The position numbers were made by a program, and so were the translations under genes. DNA of 64,000 nt from Streptomyces sp. NBC_01478 (GTDB taxonomy: Bacteria > Actinomycetota > Actinomycetes > Streptomycetales > Streptomycetaceae). Where the stretch lies: assembly GCF_036227225.1 (NCBI RefSeq), contig NZ_CP109444.1, positions 4,631,501 to 4,695,500 of the forward strand, in the 5' to 3' direction. This document shows, piece after piece, positions 8,886 to 15,496 of this stretch. Numbering within the stretch: position 1 is the first letter of the stretch; each line of letters opens with the position of its first letter. Below the pieces are notes generated by a model. The model was not told the origin of the DNA. It made no database searches and worked only from the letters and a program-made list of their open reading frames with translations.

Positions 8886-9467
8886 TCACACGGCAGCGGT
8901 GCCGATGAGCGCGTTGCGGGTGACCAGGGCGGCCAGTTCGTCCTCCGTCAGGGACTCCGTGCCCGCGGGCCTGAGCGGCAGGACCATGTACCGGCTCTCC
9001 GCGCTGGAGTCCCACACGGTGATGTCCGTGGCCGCGGGCAACCGGAGGCCGAACTCGGCCAGTACGGAACGGGGTTCGCGGACCACGCGGGAGCGGTAGG
9101 CCTCCGACTTGTACCAGCCCGGGGACGGGCCGAGGAGGGGCAGGGGGTAGCAGGAGCAGAGGGTGCAGACGATGACGTTGTGGGTCGCTTCCGTGTTCTC
9201 GACGACCCGCAGCCGCTGGAACGAGCCGTCCATGAAGCCGAGTTCCTGCACGGCGGCCGTGCCGTCCGTCAACAGCCGTTCCCGGTAGGCCTCGTCGGTC
9301 CAGGCGCGGGCGACGACCCGCGCACCGTTCACCGGCGACGCACCCGAGAGGAACGCGTCGAGCACCTCGTCGACCGCTCCGCCCGCGACGATCCCCTTCT
9401 CCTCCAGCAGGGTCTCAAGGCGCCGCACCCGCCGGGAGACCGAGGCGTCCTCGTGGTCACCGCTCAT
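8886..9467 (-). CDS. Nitrile hydratase alpha-type subunit, cobalt type (193 aa)
   Basis: This is the metal-binding subunit of a nitrile hydratase or close relative (thiocyanate hydrolase gamma, toyocamycin nitrile hydratase). It carries the claw motif Cys101-Thr-Leu-Cys104-Ser105-Cys106, whose cysteines and backbone amides bind the non-corrin metal. Thr at the second position is the cobalt form; iron enzymes have Ser. The flanking YRSRVVREPR matches the family. The usual CYPWP after the claw is CYPLP here. A GAGGAT ribosome site lies just upstream. The start overlaps the stop of the preceding gene by 11 bases, so translation is coupled. Length fits the family (about 190-210). It is the last gene of a likely hppD-betaN-betaC-alpha unit. 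No cobalt transporter or activator gene is adjacent. Confidence 0.9.
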   Translation of the reverse strand: MSGDHEDASVSRRVRRLETLLEEKGIVAGGAVDEVLDAFLSGASPVNGARVVARAWTDEAYRERLLTDGTAAVQELGFMDGSFQRLRVVENTEATHNVIVCTLCSCYPLPLLGPSPGWYKSEAYRSRVVREPRSVLAEFGLRLPAATDITVWDSSAESRYMVLPLRPAGTESLTEDELAALVTRNALIGTAAV

Positions 9468-9753
9468 CGTCACGATCCTCTTCGTACGCTTCCAAGTAGC
9501 TTTCCCACAGGTCCAGTACGACGTGGTGGTCGCCCTCGCCCCACAGGTCGCGAGCCGCGAACCGCACCGCGTACACCTGCTCCACCGGCGCGTCCCCGCG
9601 CCCCCGCGCACTGACGTCGGCCAGCTCCGCGCGCCCCTCCGGCTCGACGACGACGCCGGACTTGCCGCGCGCGTACCGGGGCAGGCGGGTGTGGTGCGGC
9701 GGGTCGTGCGGGAAGGTCCGCACCCGGGTGCCGGGCGGGAAGCGGTCAGTCAT
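9457..9753 (-). CDS. Nitrile hydratase beta subunit, C-terminal half as a separate protein (98 aa)
   Basis: This small protein equals the C-terminal SH3-like barrel of a normal nitrile hydratase beta subunit. It begins FPPGTRVRT and contains HTRLPRYARGKSG, which matches the canonical PPGHTRLPRYVRGK block that carries an active-site Arg. It ends with the typical VYAVRFAARDLWGE and LDLWESYLE. Normal beta subunits are about 220-230 aa in one chain. Here the N-terminal half is a separate gene overlapping by 8 bases. The same split is known in thiocyanate hydrolase (scnB, scnA, scnC) and in the toyocamycin nitrile hydratase (toyJKL), in both of which the pieces assemble into one enzyme. Confidence 0.87.
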   Translation of the reverse strand: MTDRFPPGTRVRTFPHDPPHHTRLPRYARGKSGVVVEPEGRAELADVSARGRGDAPVEQVYAVRFAARDLWGEGDHHVVLDLWESYLEAYEEDRDDER

Positions 9754-10027
9754 CCAACTCACCCGGTTCGAGGACGCCTTTGCGTTCCAGCAGGGCGGTG
9801 ATCGCGGTGAACCAGCGTTCGTAGTACGACATCGAGAGGTACGCGGCGGGCGGGATCGCCTCGATCGCGTCCCGGAACTCGTTGGTGTTGAAGATCCCTT
9901 GCGCGCGCAGGGCGTTGAACAGCCCGACGACCCGGGCCTCCCAGTCGGCGTGGAAGGGCTCGGGGTCGTCGGTGGTGTCGATGGCACCGAAGCCCTGGGT
10001 GCCGCCCACGTCGTTGATCCTGGCCAT
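9746..10027 (-). CDS. Nitrile hydratase beta subunit, N-terminal half as a separate protein (93 aa)
   Basis: The sequence matches the helical N-terminal domain of nitrile hydratase beta: it starts MARINDVGGTQGFG, where the family has NGIHDTGGxxGxG, and contains EFRDAIEAIPPAAYLSMSYY and WFTAITALLERKGVL. Small cobalt-insertion activators are also related to this domain. However, they are longer and are not normally fused by overlap to a beta C-terminal piece, so a structural subunit is more likely. The ATG at 10027 lies 38 bases after the hppD stop on the same strand, with no good ribosome site and no clear promoter, suggesting transcription from hppD. Confidence 0.87.
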   Translation of the reverse strand: MARINDVGGTQGFGAIDTTDDPEPFHADWEARVVGLFNALRAQGIFNTNEFRDAIEAIPPAAYLSMSYYERWFTAITALLERKGVLEPGELDD

Positions 10028-10065
10028 GGGTGCAGCGTACGTCCGTATCCGGGGCTACGGCCGCG

Positions 10066-11283
<1,218 letters not shown>

Positions 11284-11345
11284 TCAGTGGTACGACCGTT
11301 TCGGCGGGCTTTCCGTACAGGATGACCATCGGTGGAGGCGGCGGC

Positions 11346-11837
11346 ATGGGGATCGATCAGCTCGACGGCCGGATCATCGTGCTGCTGGCCGAGGAGCCGC
11401 GGATCGGGGTGCTGGAGATGTCCCGGCGGCTGGGGGTGGCCCGGGGGACGGTGCAGGCGCGGCTGGACCGGCTTCAGTCGAATGGAGTCATCCGCGGGTT
11501 CGGGCCCCAGGTCGATCCGGCGGCGCTCGGCTATCCGGTCACGGCGTTCGCGACGCTGGAGATCCGGCAGGGGCAAGGGACGGACGTCCGGGCGCACTTG
11601 GCGACCGTCCCGGAGGTGCTCGAACTGCACACCACGACCGGCAGCGGGGACATGCTGTGCCGGCTGGTGGCCCGCTCGAACGCCGATCTTCAGCGGGTCA
11701 TCGACCGGGTTGTCGGTTTTGATGGCATTGTCCGGGCCGCCACCGCGATCGTGATGGAGAACCCGGTTCCGCTGCGGGTCATCCCCTTGGTGGAACAGGC
11801 GGCCCTGGATCGGGAAAGGACGACCTGGCCGACGTAG
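11346..11837 (+). CDS. Lrp/AsnC family transcriptional regulator (163 aa)
   Basis: The N-terminal winged helix (about residues 1-60; IDQLDGRIIVLLAEEP, then LGVARGTVQARLDRL as the recognition helix) is followed by an RAM/AsnC ligand-binding domain (about 70-150). The ligand is probably an amino acid or aromatic keto acid. The ATG at 11346 has GGAGGC 7 bases upstream, although the reading frame is open 66 bases further. It is divergent from hppD across about 125 bases, and its stop is 12 bases before the ABC transporter operon, so it may be co-transcribed with the transporter as well as controlling hppD. Confidence 0.88.
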   Translation: MGIDQLDGRIIVLLAEEPRIGVLEMSRRLGVARGTVQARLDRLQSNGVIRGFGPQVDPAALGYPVTAFATLEIRQGQGTDVRAHLATVPEVLELHTTTGSGDMLCRLVARSNADLQRVIDRVVGFDGIVRAATAIVMENPVPLRVIPLVEQAALDRERTTWPT

Positions 11838-11849
11838 GGGTGTGGGCAT

Positions 11850-12497
11850 GTGAGCTTCTGGGAGTACGTGAGCAACCGGCACCAGCAACTGCTCACCGAC
11901 GCCTACCAACATGCCAGCGCGGTCTTCCAGTGCATGGTCGTGGCCACGCTGATCGGGGTGCTGATCGGGGTCGTGACCTATCGGAGCGAGTGGGCGGGCA
12001 ACCTGGCCACCACGGCCACGTCGACCATTCTGACCATTCCGTCGCTCGCCATGATCGGTCTGCTCATTCCGATCGTGGGCCTTGGCGTTCCGCCCACCGT
12101 GATCGCTCTGACCCTGTACGGGCTGCTGCCGATCGTGCGCAACTCGATCGTGGGGCTGCGCGGGGTCGACCCGTCCCTGGTGGACGCGGCGAAGGGCATC
12201 GGGATGTCCCGGCTGATGCGGCTCGCGCGGGTCGAACTGCCGCTGGCCTGGCCGCCGATCCTGACCGGTATCCGGGTCTCCACCCAGATGCTGATGGGCA
12301 TCGCGGCCATCGCGGCGTACGCCTCCGGGCCCGGCCTCGGCAACGAGATCTTCCGCGGTATCGGGTCGCTGGGCAGCAAGAACGCCCTCAACCAGGTGCT
12401 CGCGGGCACGCTCGGGATCATCGTCCTGGCGCTGCTGTTCGACGCCGCGTACGTCCTTCTCGGACGGCTGACCATTCCCAGGGGGATCCGTGCCTGA
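11850..12497 (+). CDS. Glycine betaine/choline-type ABC transporter permease
   Basis: This is an OpuCB/ProW-like inner-membrane component (215 aa) with about five hydrophobic segments. The EAA-type loop near residues 112-130 reads DAAKGIGMSRLMRLARVELPLA and contacts the ATPase. Its start is GTG at 11850, 12 bases after the regulator stop. The reading frame overlaps the next gene by 8 bases, so translation is coupled. Two similar permeases in one operon is the normal OpuC arrangement. Substrates of this family are quaternary ammonium osmoprotectants. Confidence 0.88.
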   Translation: MSFWEYVSNRHQQLLTDAYQHASAVFQCMVVATLIGVLIGVVTYRSEWAGNLATTATSTILTIPSLAMIGLLIPIVGLGVPPTVIALTLYGLLPIVRNSIVGLRGVDPSLVDAAKGIGMSRLMRLARVELPLAWPPILTGIRVSTQMLMGIAAIAAYASGPGLGNEIFRGIGSLGSKNALNQVLAGTLGIIVLALLFDAAYVLLGRLTIPRGIRA

Positions 12498-13737
12498 GCC
12501 GGCGACCACCACGACCTCCGGTGCCTCCATCGAACTGGAGAACCTGACCAAGAAGTACCCGGGCAGTCAGCAGCCGGCCGTCGACAGCGTCAACATGGAG
12601 ATCAAGGCGGGCGAGCTGGTCGTCTTCGTCGGGCCCTCCGGCTGCGGGAAGTCCACCACGCTCAAGATGATCAACCGGCTGATCGAACCGACCGGCGGTC
12701 GCATCCGCATCGACGGCGAGGACGTCACCGACATCGACCCGGTGAAGCTGCGCCGCAAGGTCGGCTACGCGATCCAGTCGAGCGGTCTCTTCCCGCACAT
12801 GACCGTCGCCCAGAACATCGCGCTGGTACCGAGGATGATCGGCTGGTCGAAGTCCCGGATCAGGAACCGGGTGGAGGAGATGCTCGACCTGGTCGGGCTC
12901 GACGCCGGCGAGTTCCAGGGCCGCTATCCGCGCCAGCTCTCCGGCGGGCAGCAGCAACGCGTGGGCGTGGCACGGGCGTTGGCGGCCGATCCGCCGGTGC
13001 TGCTGATGGACGAACCGTTCGGCGCGGTCGACCCGATCACCCGCGACCATCTCCAGGACGAGCTGATCAGGCTCCAGCACGAACTGCACAAGACGATCGT
13101 CTTCGTCACCCACGACTTCGACGAGGCGATCAAACTGGGCGACCGGATCGCCGTGCTGCGCGAACGCTCGCACATCGCGCAGTTCGACACCCCGGAGGCG
13201 ATCCTCACCAACCCTGCGGACGACTTCGTGTCCGGGTTCGTGGGCGCCGGGGCCGCCCTGAAGCGGCTGAACCTGACCCGCGTACGGGACGTGGAGATCA
13301 CCGACTATCCGACGGTGACCGTCGACGACCCGCTCCAGAACATCTTCGACAAACTCCGGGACAGCGGCACCAACGAGATCCTCCTCCTCGACAAGCGCGG
13401 CCGGCCCTACAAGTGGCTGCGGCGCGGCGACATGATGCGCGCCAAGGGGTCGCTGGCCCGGGCGGGCACGCTGGTCAGCGACACCGTGACCCGGGACGCG
13501 ACCCTCCGGGACGCGCTGGAGGCCGTGCTCACGGACAACGCGGGGCGGGTCGCGGTCACCGGGCGGCGCGGCGAGTACACCGGCGTCGTCGACATGGAGA
13601 CGCTGATGAACTCCGTGCACGAACTCCTCGAAGCCGACCGGCTGGAGGCCATGGAGGGCCGGCACGAGCTGGAGGAGGCCCGGGCCCTCCAGACGCACGC
13701 CGAGCAGGAAGGCGCCGGCGGGGAGGAGAAGGCGTGA
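12490..13737 (+). CDS. Glycine betaine/choline-type ABC transporter ATPase with CBS domains
   Basis: This is the ATP-binding subunit (415 aa), OpuCA/ProV-like. Walker A is GPSGCGKST (about 48-56), the Q-loop follows in YAIQSSGLFPHM, the signature is LSGGQQQR (about 150) and Walker B is LLMDEPFGAVDP (about 171). A C-terminal pair of CBS modules (about 260-390) is the usual osmosensing or nucleotide-sensing part of this family. The last 30 residues are Glu/Ala-rich. Start is GTG at 12490, inside the end of the permease gene, and its stop overlaps the next start in GTGA. Confidence 0.92.
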   Translation: MPEPATTTTSGASIELENLTKKYPGSQQPAVDSVNMEIKAGELVVFVGPSGCGKSTTLKMINRLIEPTGGRIRIDGEDVTDIDPVKLRRKVGYAIQSSGLFPHMTVAQNIALVPRMIGWSKSRIRNRVEEMLDLVGLDAGEFQGRYPRQLSGGQQQRVGVARALAADPPVLLMDEPFGAVDPITRDHLQDELIRLQHELHKTIVFVTHDFDEAIKLGDRIAVLRERSHIAQFDTPEAILTNPADDFVSGFVGAGAALKRLNLTRVRDVEITDYPTVTVDDPLQNIFDKLRDSGTNEILLLDKRGRPYKWLRRGDMMRAKGSLARAGTLVSDTVTRDATLRDALEAVLTDNAGRVAVTGRRGEYTGVVDMETLMNSVHELLEADRLEAMEGRHELEEARALQTHAEQEGAGGEEKA

Positions 13738-14537
13738 CCACTCCCGAGCTGGAAGAAGAGGCGGAAGTCGAGGCCCCGCCGCCCGCGCCTCCCCCGAAGC
13801 GACGCGTCACCTGGCAGAAGCTGACGATTCTGCCCGCGTTCCTGGTGGCGGTCCTGCTGGCGACCTGGCTGTGGTTCAACCAGGCGGACCTGGACGCCAT
13901 TTCGGAGAACGCGCTGTCCAACGGGCAGGTGAGCAAGGCCCTTTGGCAGCATGTCCAACTGACCGTGATCTCCACGTTCTTCGTGCTGATCATCGCGATC
14001 CCGCTGGGCATCCTGCTGACCCGCAGGGCGTTCCGGAAGGCCGCACCGGTGGCGATGACCTTCGCCAACATGGGCCAGGCCACCCCGGCGATCGGCCTGT
14101 TGGCCCTGCTGGTGATCTGGCTGGGCACCGGCGAGAAGGCGGCCCTGATCGGCATCATCATCTACGCCGTCCTGCCGGTGCTGTCCAACACCATCGCCGG
14201 CCTGAAGGCCAACGACCCCACGCTCCTGGAGGCGGCCCGGGGCATCGGCATGTCCCAACTCGGCGTCCTGAGACGGGTGGAGCTCCCGCTCGCCGTCCCG
14301 CTGATCCTGGCCGGCGTCCGCACGGCCCTGGTCCTCAACGTCGGTACGGCGACCCTGGCGACCTTCGGCGGGGGCGGCGGCCTGGGCGTCCTGATCACCA
14401 CCGGCATCACCACCCAGCGGATGCCCGTCCTGGTCCTCGGCTCGATCCTCACGGTCAGTCTCGCCCTGCTGGTGGACTGGCTGGCCTCGCTGGCCGAACT
14501 GCTGCTGCGGCCAAGGGGATTGGAGGCGGGCGCATGA
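13734..14537 (+). CDS. Glycine betaine/choline-type ABC transporter permease (second)
   Basis: This second inner-membrane subunit (267 aa) has an acidic, Pro-rich cytoplasmic start, one extra N-terminal membrane helix (about 28-45) and the permease domain (about 70-265). The EAA loop reads EAARGIGMSQLGVLRRVELPLA. GTG at 13734 overlaps the ATPase stop by 4 bases, and its own stop overlaps the next ATG by 4. It pairs with the permease at 11850 to form the heterodimeric channel. Confidence 0.9.
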   Translation: MTTPELEEEAEVEAPPPAPPPKRRVTWQKLTILPAFLVAVLLATWLWFNQADLDAISENALSNGQVSKALWQHVQLTVISTFFVLIIAIPLGILLTRRAFRKAAPVAMTFANMGQATPAIGLLALLVIWLGTGEKAALIGIIIYAVLPVLSNTIAGLKANDPTLLEAARGIGMSQLGVLRRVELPLAVPLILAGVRTALVLNVGTATLATFGGGGGLGVLITTGITTQRMPVLVLGSILTVSLALLVDWLASLAELLLRPRGLEAGA

Positions 14538-15496
14538 AACGCACCTGTCTGCTGCTGTCCGGGACGCTGTTCGTCGTCTCCGGCTGCGGACTGACCAGCG
14601 GCTCCCCCATGGTCGACGACGTCAGCCCCGGCACGATCGGGCGGGGCGAGCCGCTCAAGGGCGCCCATCTCACCGTCACCTCCAAGGAGTTCACCGAGCA
14701 ACTGATCCTCGGCGCGATGATGGGCATCGCCTTCGAGGCGGCCGGCGCGGATGTCCTCGACCGGACCGGCATCCAGGGTTCGATCGGCGCGCGGGAGGCC
14801 GTCAAGTCCGGTGACGCGGACGGGATGTACGAGTACACCGGCACCGCGTGGATCACCTACCTCGGCAACAGCGAACCGATCACCGACCCGATGAAGCAGT
14901 GGGAGGCGGTCCGGGACGCCGACCTCAAGAACGGCCTGACCTGGCTGCCGCCCTCCGCTCTCAACAACACCTACGCGCTCGCGATGAACCAGGCCAACTT
15001 CAAGAAGTACGGCACGAAGACGCTCTCCGAGGTGGCCGCGCTGGCGAAGAAGGACCCGGGTGCGGTGACGGTGTGCGTGGAGAGCGAGTTCGCCAACCGC
15101 GCGGACGGGCTGCCGGGCATGGAGAAGGCGTACGGCATGAATCTCCCGGCGAAGAACATCACGCAGATGGACACCGGGATCATCTACACCCAGGTGAAGA
15201 AGGGGAGTTGCACGTACGGCGAGGTCTTCACCACCGACGGCCGCATCAAGTCGATGAACCTCGCGGTGATGGCCGACGACAAGAAGTTCTTCCCCAACTA
15301 CAACGCGGCGCCCGAGATCAACACGAAGGCCCTGAAGAAGTGGCCGGCGATCGCGAAGGTCCTGGACCCGGTCACGAAGAAGCTGAACAACACGGTGGCG
15401 CAGGCGCTGAACGCGAAGGTGGATGTCGACGGGGAGGATCCGCATCAGGTGGCGTTGGACTGGATGAAGGCGGAGGGGTTGGTCAAGGGCGGGTGA
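14534..15496 (+). CDS. Glycine betaine/choline-type ABC transporter substrate-binding lipoprotein
   Basis: A lipoprotein signal is evident: Lys-Arg start, hydrophobic stretch, then a lipobox-like VVSGC with the acylated Cys at about residue 18. The mature 300 residues form an OpuAC-type binding domain, starting LTVTSKEFTEQLILG as in choline/betaine binders of this type. Length is 320. The ATGA overlap with the permease gene places it last in the four-gene operon. I cannot distinguish glycine betaine, choline and carnitine from sequence alone. Confidence 0.92.
   Translation: MKRTCLLLSGTLFVVSGCGLTSGSPMVDDVSPGTIGRGEPLKGAHLTVTSKEFTEQLILGAMMGIAFEAAGADVLDRTGIQGSIGAREAVKSGDADGMYEYTGTAWITYLGNSEPITDPMKQWEAVRDADLKNGLTWLPPSALNNTYALAMNQANFKKYGTKTLSEVAALAKKDPGAVTVCVESEFANRADGLPGMEKAYGMNLPAKNITQMDTGIIYTQVKKGSCTYGEVFTTDGRIKSMNLAVMADDKKFFPNYNAAPEINTKALKKWPAIAKVLDPVTKKLNNTVAQALNAKVDVDGEDPHQVALDWMKAEGLVKGG

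Follow-up and report, generated by a model that had tools for sequence, protein, structure and literature searches.

A three-gene, split-beta nitrile hydratase of the cobalt type downstream of hppD in Streptomyces sp. NBC_01478

The gene set

We analysed a 64,000-nucleotide stretch of the genome of Streptomyces sp. NBC_01478 (hereafter the window; positions are counted from its first letter), focusing on three overlapping genes that encode the two halves of the beta subunit and the alpha subunit of a nitrile hydratase (NHase). On the minus strand the order is hppD, a 38-base gap, betaN, betaC and alpha. We consider it likely that the three genes encode a cobalt-type (Co-type) NHase of the AnhD-AnhE-AnhA kind, with an activator-free maturation of its own and in part its own leaderless promoter, and that its position after hppD is mostly incidental. 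The features are:

8886..9467 (-): alpha (AnhA-like), Co-type NHase alpha subunit; 193 aa, 20.94 kDa; PF02979, 3e-79
9457..9753 (-): betaC (AnhE-like), C-terminal half of the beta subunit; 98 aa, 11.24 kDa; PF02211 NHase_beta_C, 3.6e-23
9746..10027 (-): betaN (AnhD-like), N-terminal half of the beta subunit; 93 aa, 10.34 kDa; PF21006 NHase_beta_N, 8.2e-30
10034..10039 (-): TACGCT, putative -10 box (conserved TANNNT) for leaderless transcription of betaN, whose ATG is 6 bases downstream
10028..10065 (-): intergenic gap of 38 bases between hppD and betaN; folding gives no significant hairpin here
10066..11220 (-): hppD, 4-hydroxyphenylpyruvate dioxygenase, genomic neighbour; TIGR01263, 456.7 bits, cut-off 277

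Gene calls and family searches agree with the preliminary description of the locus, which had reported three overlapping genes, a split beta and a Co-type alpha with the motif CTLCSC, 38 bases after hppD. The interval it gave, 9457-10065, covers betaN, betaC and the gap; alpha (8886-9467) lies outside. BetaN and betaC overlap by 8 bases, and betaC and alpha by 11. The 8-base overlap recurs at 57 of the 66 loci of the split clade described below, a count for which gene starts were chosen by script and in which three records are doubled under two ids (L034 = L097, L040 = L120, L041 = L127), leaving 63 distinct loci. The 66 exclude the unsplit L062 and L063, L064 and L065 (broken-looking or partial alpha), L093 and L094 (a second split type) and rows in which the two beta halves were not both present. 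In the two Fodinicola feengrottensis loci among these (L064:7001-7589, L065:477-1060), alpha matched in two pieces each and looks broken or badly sequenced. Since named records of other genera (Geodermatophilus, Modestobacter, Actinomycetospora, Fodinicola), besides named Streptomyces, carry the split genes and the overlap recurs, the split is no sequencing artefact; the conserved overlap rules out a frameshift as its cause. For the three genes, 20 of the 21 ratios of non-synonymous to synonymous substitution rates (dN/dS) between the window and seven relatives lay between 0.07 and 0.31; the exception is betaN against L034 (0.50). On this sequence evidence, the three-gene set is real, intact and under purifying selection.

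The alpha subunit scored 266 bits against the NCBIfam equivalog TIGR01323 (NHase alpha), above the cut-off of 249.85; three other clade members, L067, L053 and L072, fall slightly under it (249.4, 249.4 and 244.4 bits). Its closest solved structures are Co-type NHases. The metal motif CTLCSC occupies alpha residues 101-106 and is kept in 65/65 split and 20/20 unsplit rows, one of the 66 loci having yielded no alpha row in the residue alignment. BetaN R52 and Y68 and betaC R23 are present at all 66 split-clade loci and betaN W72 at 64; we take R52 and R23 to be the beta arginine pair that holds the oxidised cysteines. Against TIGR03888 (full-length beta), whose cut-off of 152.2 applies to a single chain, the halves reach 94 and 77 bits, as expected because the beta subunit is split. 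BetaN was also considered as an activator instead of a beta half. This was ruled out, as TIGR03888 covers beta residues 1-92, catalytic Arg and Tyr included, with 94.1 bits, versus 30.2 bits for the activator model TIGR03889 (cut-off 46).

The preliminary description had proposed a nitrile- or thiocyanate-using enzyme, of which the first option agrees with the NHase model. A thiocyanate hydrolase (SCN- to COS and NH3) would share the three-polypeptide architecture and the split beta, and alpha does match 2dd4_C at 2.6e-42 and TIGR03887 (thiocyanate hydrolase gamma) at 177.1 bits. That score nevertheless lies below the TIGR03887 cut-off of 291.45, while the NHase cut-off is passed, and the match of betaN to the beta chain of thiocyanate hydrolase (SCNase) has an E-value of just 0.24. 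Following CTLCSCYP, the window has Leu109, at a position usually held by Trp, but L168 has Arg; of the rows tested, L168 is the one that passes TIGR03887 (362 bits), and its beta matches as one unsplit piece. Arg at this position is presumably a mark of the thiocyanate hydrolase family, though it is not confined to TIGR03887-passing rows, as the NHase-passing L094 has it too. Finally, the scanned neighbours (hppD, Lrp-type, TPR and flavin adenine dinucleotide (FAD) oxidase genes) include no sulfur genes. The thiocyanate hydrolase identity was thus set aside on the curated cut-offs, with the pocket Leu in support, and we regard this function as extremely improbable. Elsewhere in the actinobacterial class, alphas with the motif CALCSCYPRPIL or similar were seen in L168-L175, L179 and L180; L168 is the one of these that was scanned.

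Alpha relatives occur in 55 of 295 Streptomyces genomes. Thirty are of the split type that we call hppD-type (73-100% alpha identity), five are his-type (67-70%) and two toy-type (60-61%), and all 37 genomes read as split; the others hold mainly two-subunit forms, two loci of the second split type and some partial matches. Named records carrying the split form come from Streptomyces, Geodermatophilus, Modestobacter, Actinomycetospora, Fodinicola, a Pseudonocardiales metagenome-assembled genome (MAG) and a Dormiibacterota MAG; two Aquisalimonas rows are unsplit. An alpha relative was found in 26 of 296 genomes drawn from the class, and in the loci fetched from these outside Streptomyces the beta, where readable, looked unsplit or was not found. 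Plasmid carriage was considered and set aside: of 180 plasmid records with a relative, three lie at 60-80% identity and 177 below 60%. In a maximum-likelihood tree of 91 alphas, built without 2DD4, 64 split rows fall on one side of a 100/99 branch. The split label needs two changes on this tree, L093 and L094 having split separately, and the toy-type rows L072 and L073 nest inside the split clade beside the his-type (97/92), on a long branch. On these data, split-beta hydratases form one mainly actinobacterial clade, which contains the toyocamycin-cluster enzymes.

The second, separately split hydratase (L093:3862-5226 and L094:3797-5201, in two Streptomyces genomes) has the pocket Arg (CYPRPVLG). 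The alpha of L094 satisfies the NHase model but scores 211 of the required 291 bits for thiocyanate hydrolase; downstream of the L093 hydratase are genes for a MIP-family channel and a NicO nickel/cobalt transporter.

A probable promoter element and the position after hppD

TANNNT stands 6-7 bases before the betaN ATG in 41/42 distinct hppD-type and 5/5 his-type Streptomyces sequences (46/47), and 5 bases before it in the remaining one, L109. Identical upstream sequences were counted once, and the 42 hppD-type sequences were picked by alpha identity, including L154, whose hppD linkage is unchecked; all are related to each other and are not independent trials. The motif appears nowhere else in the 60 upstream bases of the 46 full-length sequences, and its three fixed positions stand out from neighbours that are little conserved. 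At 3-13 bases before the start, it was present in 0/69 betaC, 0/69 alpha and 0/40 hppD genes. Other called open reading frames (ORFs) carry it at 6-7 bases in 21 of 663 cases, a control that uses longest-frame starts, under which betaN itself scores 24/47. Since the element persists in all three upstream contexts (hppD, a propeller gene and his genes), hppD coding constraint is disfavoured as its cause. The -10 motif of Streptomyces coelicolor is TANNNT, and leaderless starts make up 21% of its primary starts (PMC4895711); in high-GC bacteria, leaderless genes are marked by this motif at about 12 bases upstream of the start codon (PMC3160421). Of 16 sequences from outside Streptomyces, 12 show TAGGAA, equally far from a GTG start codon and interpretable either as a -10 box or as a Shine-Dalgarno sequence; TANNNT occurs in one. 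Neither motif is present at the two toy-type loci. Taken together, these patterns suggest that betaN probably has its own leaderless promoter. Among open-licence papers naming both terms, no title or abstract opening dealt with a leaderless nitrile hydratase.

The earlier remark that no obvious promoter precedes betaN is true of a sigma-70 consensus scan of the window, which found none there and did not detect TACGCT; it overlooked the conserved -10 element. Several observations weigh against a promoter of its own and a mostly incidental position. No conserved -35 box was seen in the aligned betaN upstreams. Terminator scanning and folding found nothing significant in the window's 38-base gap (fold z-score 0.69 for 10016-10085), so read-through from hppD into betaN is possible in the window. 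The set lies at most 5 kb downstream of hppD in 27/29 scorable genomes, and the distance matrices of alpha and HPPD are correlated (Mantel r 0.72, 0/2000 permutations as high, 37 loci including duplicates). A selected link of the hydratase to hppD is therefore possible. The distance correlation also fits descent with the locus and repeated loss, and by itself speaks neither for nor against a shared pathway.

The neighbourhood itself is also kept where the split hydratase is lacking. Nearly every Streptomyces locus fetched has the order hppD - TPR gene - FAD oxidase gene. We compared 20 hppD loci from hand-chosen genomes without the split type, one of which (G291) has a two-subunit hydratase elsewhere. 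The neighbourhood is kept in 20/20 and hppD-TPR in 19: our queries found nothing between hppD and the TPR gene in 17, a beta-propeller gene alone follows hppD in two (L133, L137), and L134 lacks the TPR gene, so that hppD is followed by the FAD oxidase gene. A contig end truncates the locus in one of the 30 hppD-type genomes, leaving 29 scorable. Here hppD is directly upstream in 16, with gaps of 20-577 bases (the longest, in G188, holding what appears by eye to be a decayed propeller gene); a PF21311 beta-propeller gene intervenes in 10; 4.7 kb separates hppD from the hydratase in one; and two (G006 and G084) have no hppD in the fetched locus. L126, with a 938-base gap from a weak hppD match, was scored as lacking hppD, which stricter searches did not find. 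The intervening propeller gene encodes 286-337 aa (L034:5523-6389 and five called ORFs in L097, L101, L102, L103 and L105). Two copies were scanned, and both hit PF21311, the domain of a phage 5-bladed beta-propeller receptor-binding platform.

The preliminary description had called for a search for hppD-hydratase linkage in other genomes. The linkage holds within 5 kb in 27 of the 29 scorable hppD-type genomes, as given above; other clade relatives are found after hisA, by queC (toyocamycin-type clusters) or with other neighbours. The L067-L071 hydratases belong to the histidine operon or adjoin it. A hisA/priA-type gene immediately precedes them; genes of the hisB and hisH types, an aminotransferase gene (hisC-like) and, in most, a RidA-type gene are also upstream. 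No open-licence paper naming both enzymes treats an hppD-nitrile hydratase link, judging by title and abstract opening. In the window, an Lrp/AsnC-type regulator gene (11280-11837, +) diverges from hppD, and membrane and ATPase genes at 11850-15496 (+) resemble, by eye, an osmoprotectant-type ABC transporter.

These observations bear on a role in tyrosine/homogentisate metabolism, in which the divergent Lrp-type regulator would control hppD and the hydratase genes as one transcript, and the enzyme would hydrate a tyrosine-derived aromatic nitrile. The short same-strand gap without a terminator, the proximity of hppD in most scorable genomes (adjacent in 16) and the correlated distances speak for it, as does the Lrp-type gene, which diverges from hppD at loci with enough flank, though also at those without the hydratase. 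Against it stand the conserved -10 element, the intervening propeller gene, the two hppD-type genomes lacking hppD in the fetched locus and the relatives with other neighbours. In L106, L116 and L125, moreover, stem-loop-rich stretches of low folding energy (-40 to -64 kcal/mol, without shuffle control) separate hppD from the betaN start. The supply of such a nitrile is a further difficulty: the aldoxime dehydratase family PF13816 has no match in the host genome, and its matches above cut-off, in 7/295 Streptomyces genomes, include none with a split hydratase. The his-type genome G232 has one PF13816 match below cut-off (20.4 bits), and in G124 PF13816 lies beside a two-subunit hydratase, as in the classical aldoxime pathway. 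The G124 locus (L095, G124:C26:58000-68000) looks like a classical aldoxime cluster, two PF13816 genes lying near a two-subunit hydratase with an activator match. An aldoxime route in the host was dropped on these searches, the 295 genomes serving as control. ScNHase, a purified split-beta enzyme from Streptomyces canus CGMCC 13662, is also reported to be almost inactive on indole-3-acetonitrile, an arylacetonitrile (PMC7329996).

The earlier proposals of co-expression with tyrosine catabolism and of an aldoxime-derived aromatic nitrile thus find no support here, and we judge the tyrosine role quite improbable. The hydratase's position after hppD is probably mostly positional rather than pathway-related. 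Because the hydratase seems to have its own promoter, hppD as a neighbour probably says little about its role, and a 38-base gap is weak evidence of a common pathway if the genes that follow seem to have their own promoter.

Metal loading, substrate entrance and candidate substrates

No activator gene adjoins the set, as the preliminary description had noted, and the curated activator model found none above cut-off in the host, a 12.1 Mb genome in one contig. The host has a single alpha match and a single match to the beta-N/activator family PF21006, which is betaN itself; the best TIGR03889 match (29.5 bits, cut-off 46) is also at betaN. A distant activator was accordingly set aside for the host at the curated cut-off. 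We searched 40 chosen genomes, outside which lie the split genomes G001 and G275 (of 37). TIGR03889 matched above cut-off in 0/32 split-only genomes and in 7/7 with a two-subunit hydratase, three of which (G040, G211 and G139) carry the split form too; G132, with the second split type, has no match above cut-off. This contrast is not blind, as the two-subunit genomes were partly picked for activator-like genes already seen nearby. Most split-only genomes have a sub-threshold match, located at betaN in the rows compared, and a second one in G236 (a 247-aa frame on another contig) is a further caution. For ScNHase, cobalt insertion without an activator is reported, with AnhD as a metal and subunit-swapping chaperone (PMC7329996). 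Of the two options in the preliminary description, a distant or a built-in metal factor, our analysis found none of the first kind above the curated cut-off, and the built-in factor is the better one.

The entrance to the active site differs from that of two-subunit enzymes at two places. BetaN aligns without offset to P. thermophila beta 4-77 and to 3qxe_B 3-90, its end reaching residue 97 of 3hht_B; in the alignment of betaC to P. thermophila beta (1ire_B), residue 4 of the former pairs with residue 138 of the latter. Beta residues of about 94-134 are therefore missing between the halves, including the lower tunnel-entrance loop; tunnel-entrance residues of the P. thermophila beta include 127, 128, 129 and 131 (PMC9297474). 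With this segment missing, a wider substrate entrance would follow. The second change is in the alpha pocket, where the residue after CTLCSCYP is Leu, Ile or Val in 65/65 split rows and Trp in 19/20 unsplit rows. The remaining unsplit row, the long-branch L089, also has Leu, so the split is no precondition for an aliphatic pocket. L089 (G045:C12:163500-173500) adjoins the split clade and is a possible intermediate. The P. thermophila enzyme is inactive on toyocamycin, and two entrance mutants are weakly active (PMC9297474). The lost loop segment and the aliphatic pocket may explain the acceptance of bulky substrates.

How the enzyme would work can be outlined from homology. Alpha would hold Co(III) in the CTLCSC claw, with two of its cysteines oxidised; betaN R52 and betaC R23 correspond to the beta arginines by which two-subunit enzymes secure this oxidised claw. 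A (betaN-betaC-alpha)2 assembly would hydrate nitriles to amides. BetaN, a homologue of the P14K-type activator, would double as the chaperone that ScNHase is reported to have, making a separate activator dispensable. Transcription would start at least partly at the set's own leaderless promoter, and the three cistrons would be coupled through their overlapping stop and start codons. The split would remove the lower tunnel-entrance loop segment and, with the aliphatic pocket, would favour bulky nitriles, such as toyocamycin for the nested toy-cluster enzymes and neonicotinoids for ScNHase.

As natural substrates, we infer that exogenous (hetero)aromatic nitriles are the likeliest class. Host-made preQ0 or toyocamycin was set aside as a substrate: QueC has no full-length match in the host, only two partial ones (68-72 of 210 positions) in frames of more than 800 aa, just above the 22-bit cut-off. 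A related possibility is that the enzyme is a broad detoxifier of nitrile natural products of neighbours (toyocamycin, preQ0) and later gave rise, by recruitment, to the sangivamycin-pathway enzyme. The nesting of toy-cluster hydratases in the clade and the accessory distribution (30/295 genomes) agree with this, and in the absence of a full-length host QueC such a substrate would probably be external. No resistance or transport gene was recognised beside the hydratase, however, and sangivamycin is itself bioactive; we hold this detoxifier role to be unlikely. Somewhat better placed, though still tentative, is the proposal that the beta split is an adaptation to bulky substrates, through loss of the lower entrance loop and an aliphatic residue in place of the pocket Trp, that the freed betaN became its own metal chaperone, and that a core "house" hydratase, sitting after hppD or hisA with its own leaderless promoter, was the stock of the sangivamycin-pathway enzyme.

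Comparison with known systems

The enzyme kind is already known from ScNHase, and the link to tyrosine catabolism was the weak part of the earlier finding. New, as far as the open-licence literature searched goes, are the clade-wide promoter element, the entrance changes, the missing activator and the nested toyocamycin-type enzyme. The view that split-beta enzymes are few missed both ScNHase and the mainly actinobacterial split clade: three-subunit NHases, present in 37/295 sampled Streptomyces genomes, are not curiosities. Members of the clade do without the activator type that many two-subunit Co-type enzymes need, and the two shared entrance changes make it testable whether the split opens access to bulky nitriles such as neonicotinoids and toyocamycin.

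Two-subunit Co-type NHases (Pseudonocardia thermophila 1IRE, 2DPP, 3QXE) share the fold family, the CTLCSC claw and the beta Arg and Tyr. They differ in having beta as one chain with the lower tunnel loop, usually Trp in the pocket, and often an activator gene alongside (called beside 7 loci). Thiocyanate hydrolase (2DD4) shares a beta split into two polypeptides, whereas the window fails its curated model and has Leu where the TIGR03887-passing L168 has Arg.

The toyocamycin nitrile hydratase (TNHase, ToyJKL) of Streptomyces rimosus has three subunits of about 21, 10 and 11 kDa (PMC8574189). In our comparison its type is represented by the L072 and L073 rows, which share the split, the 8-base overlap and the aliphatic pocket residue with the window. 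They adjoin QueC-, adenylosuccinate synthetase-, adenylosuccinate lyase- and IMPDH/GMP-reductase-family genes; unlike the window's set, they lie in a biosynthetic cluster and lack the leaderless -10 box, and their alphas are 60-61% identical to the window's. The window neighbours scanned hold no toy genes, and QueC occurs elsewhere in the host only as the two partial matches.

ScNHase is the closest counterpart. According to PMC7329996, its genes follow the order anhD-anhE-anhA, anhD and anhE encoding beta fragments, as in the window; an AnhD2E2A2 assembly was deduced from gel filtration; the enzyme is active on acetamiprid, thiacloprid and 'BN'; and AnhA is inactive alone, while ToyJ is cited there as active alone. 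The same paper reports no activator gene in the S. canus genome, and the host has none above cut-off. Subunit masses agree within 0.4 kDa (10.34/11.24/20.94 in the window versus 10.41/11.35/21.33 kDa in ScNHase). The published S. canus primers fit the window with 1 + 1 mismatches for anhD and 1 + 2 for anhE (81/86 bases identical). Primer sites are, however, a poor measure of closeness, because L111, whose alpha is 78% identical to the window's, fits them with 5 mismatches, as the window does, and L034 with 4. ScNHase comes from another strain, and its likeness to the window is one of gene order, masses and primer sites. On these grounds the window's set is most likely an enzyme of the ScNHase kind, and probably its orthologue.

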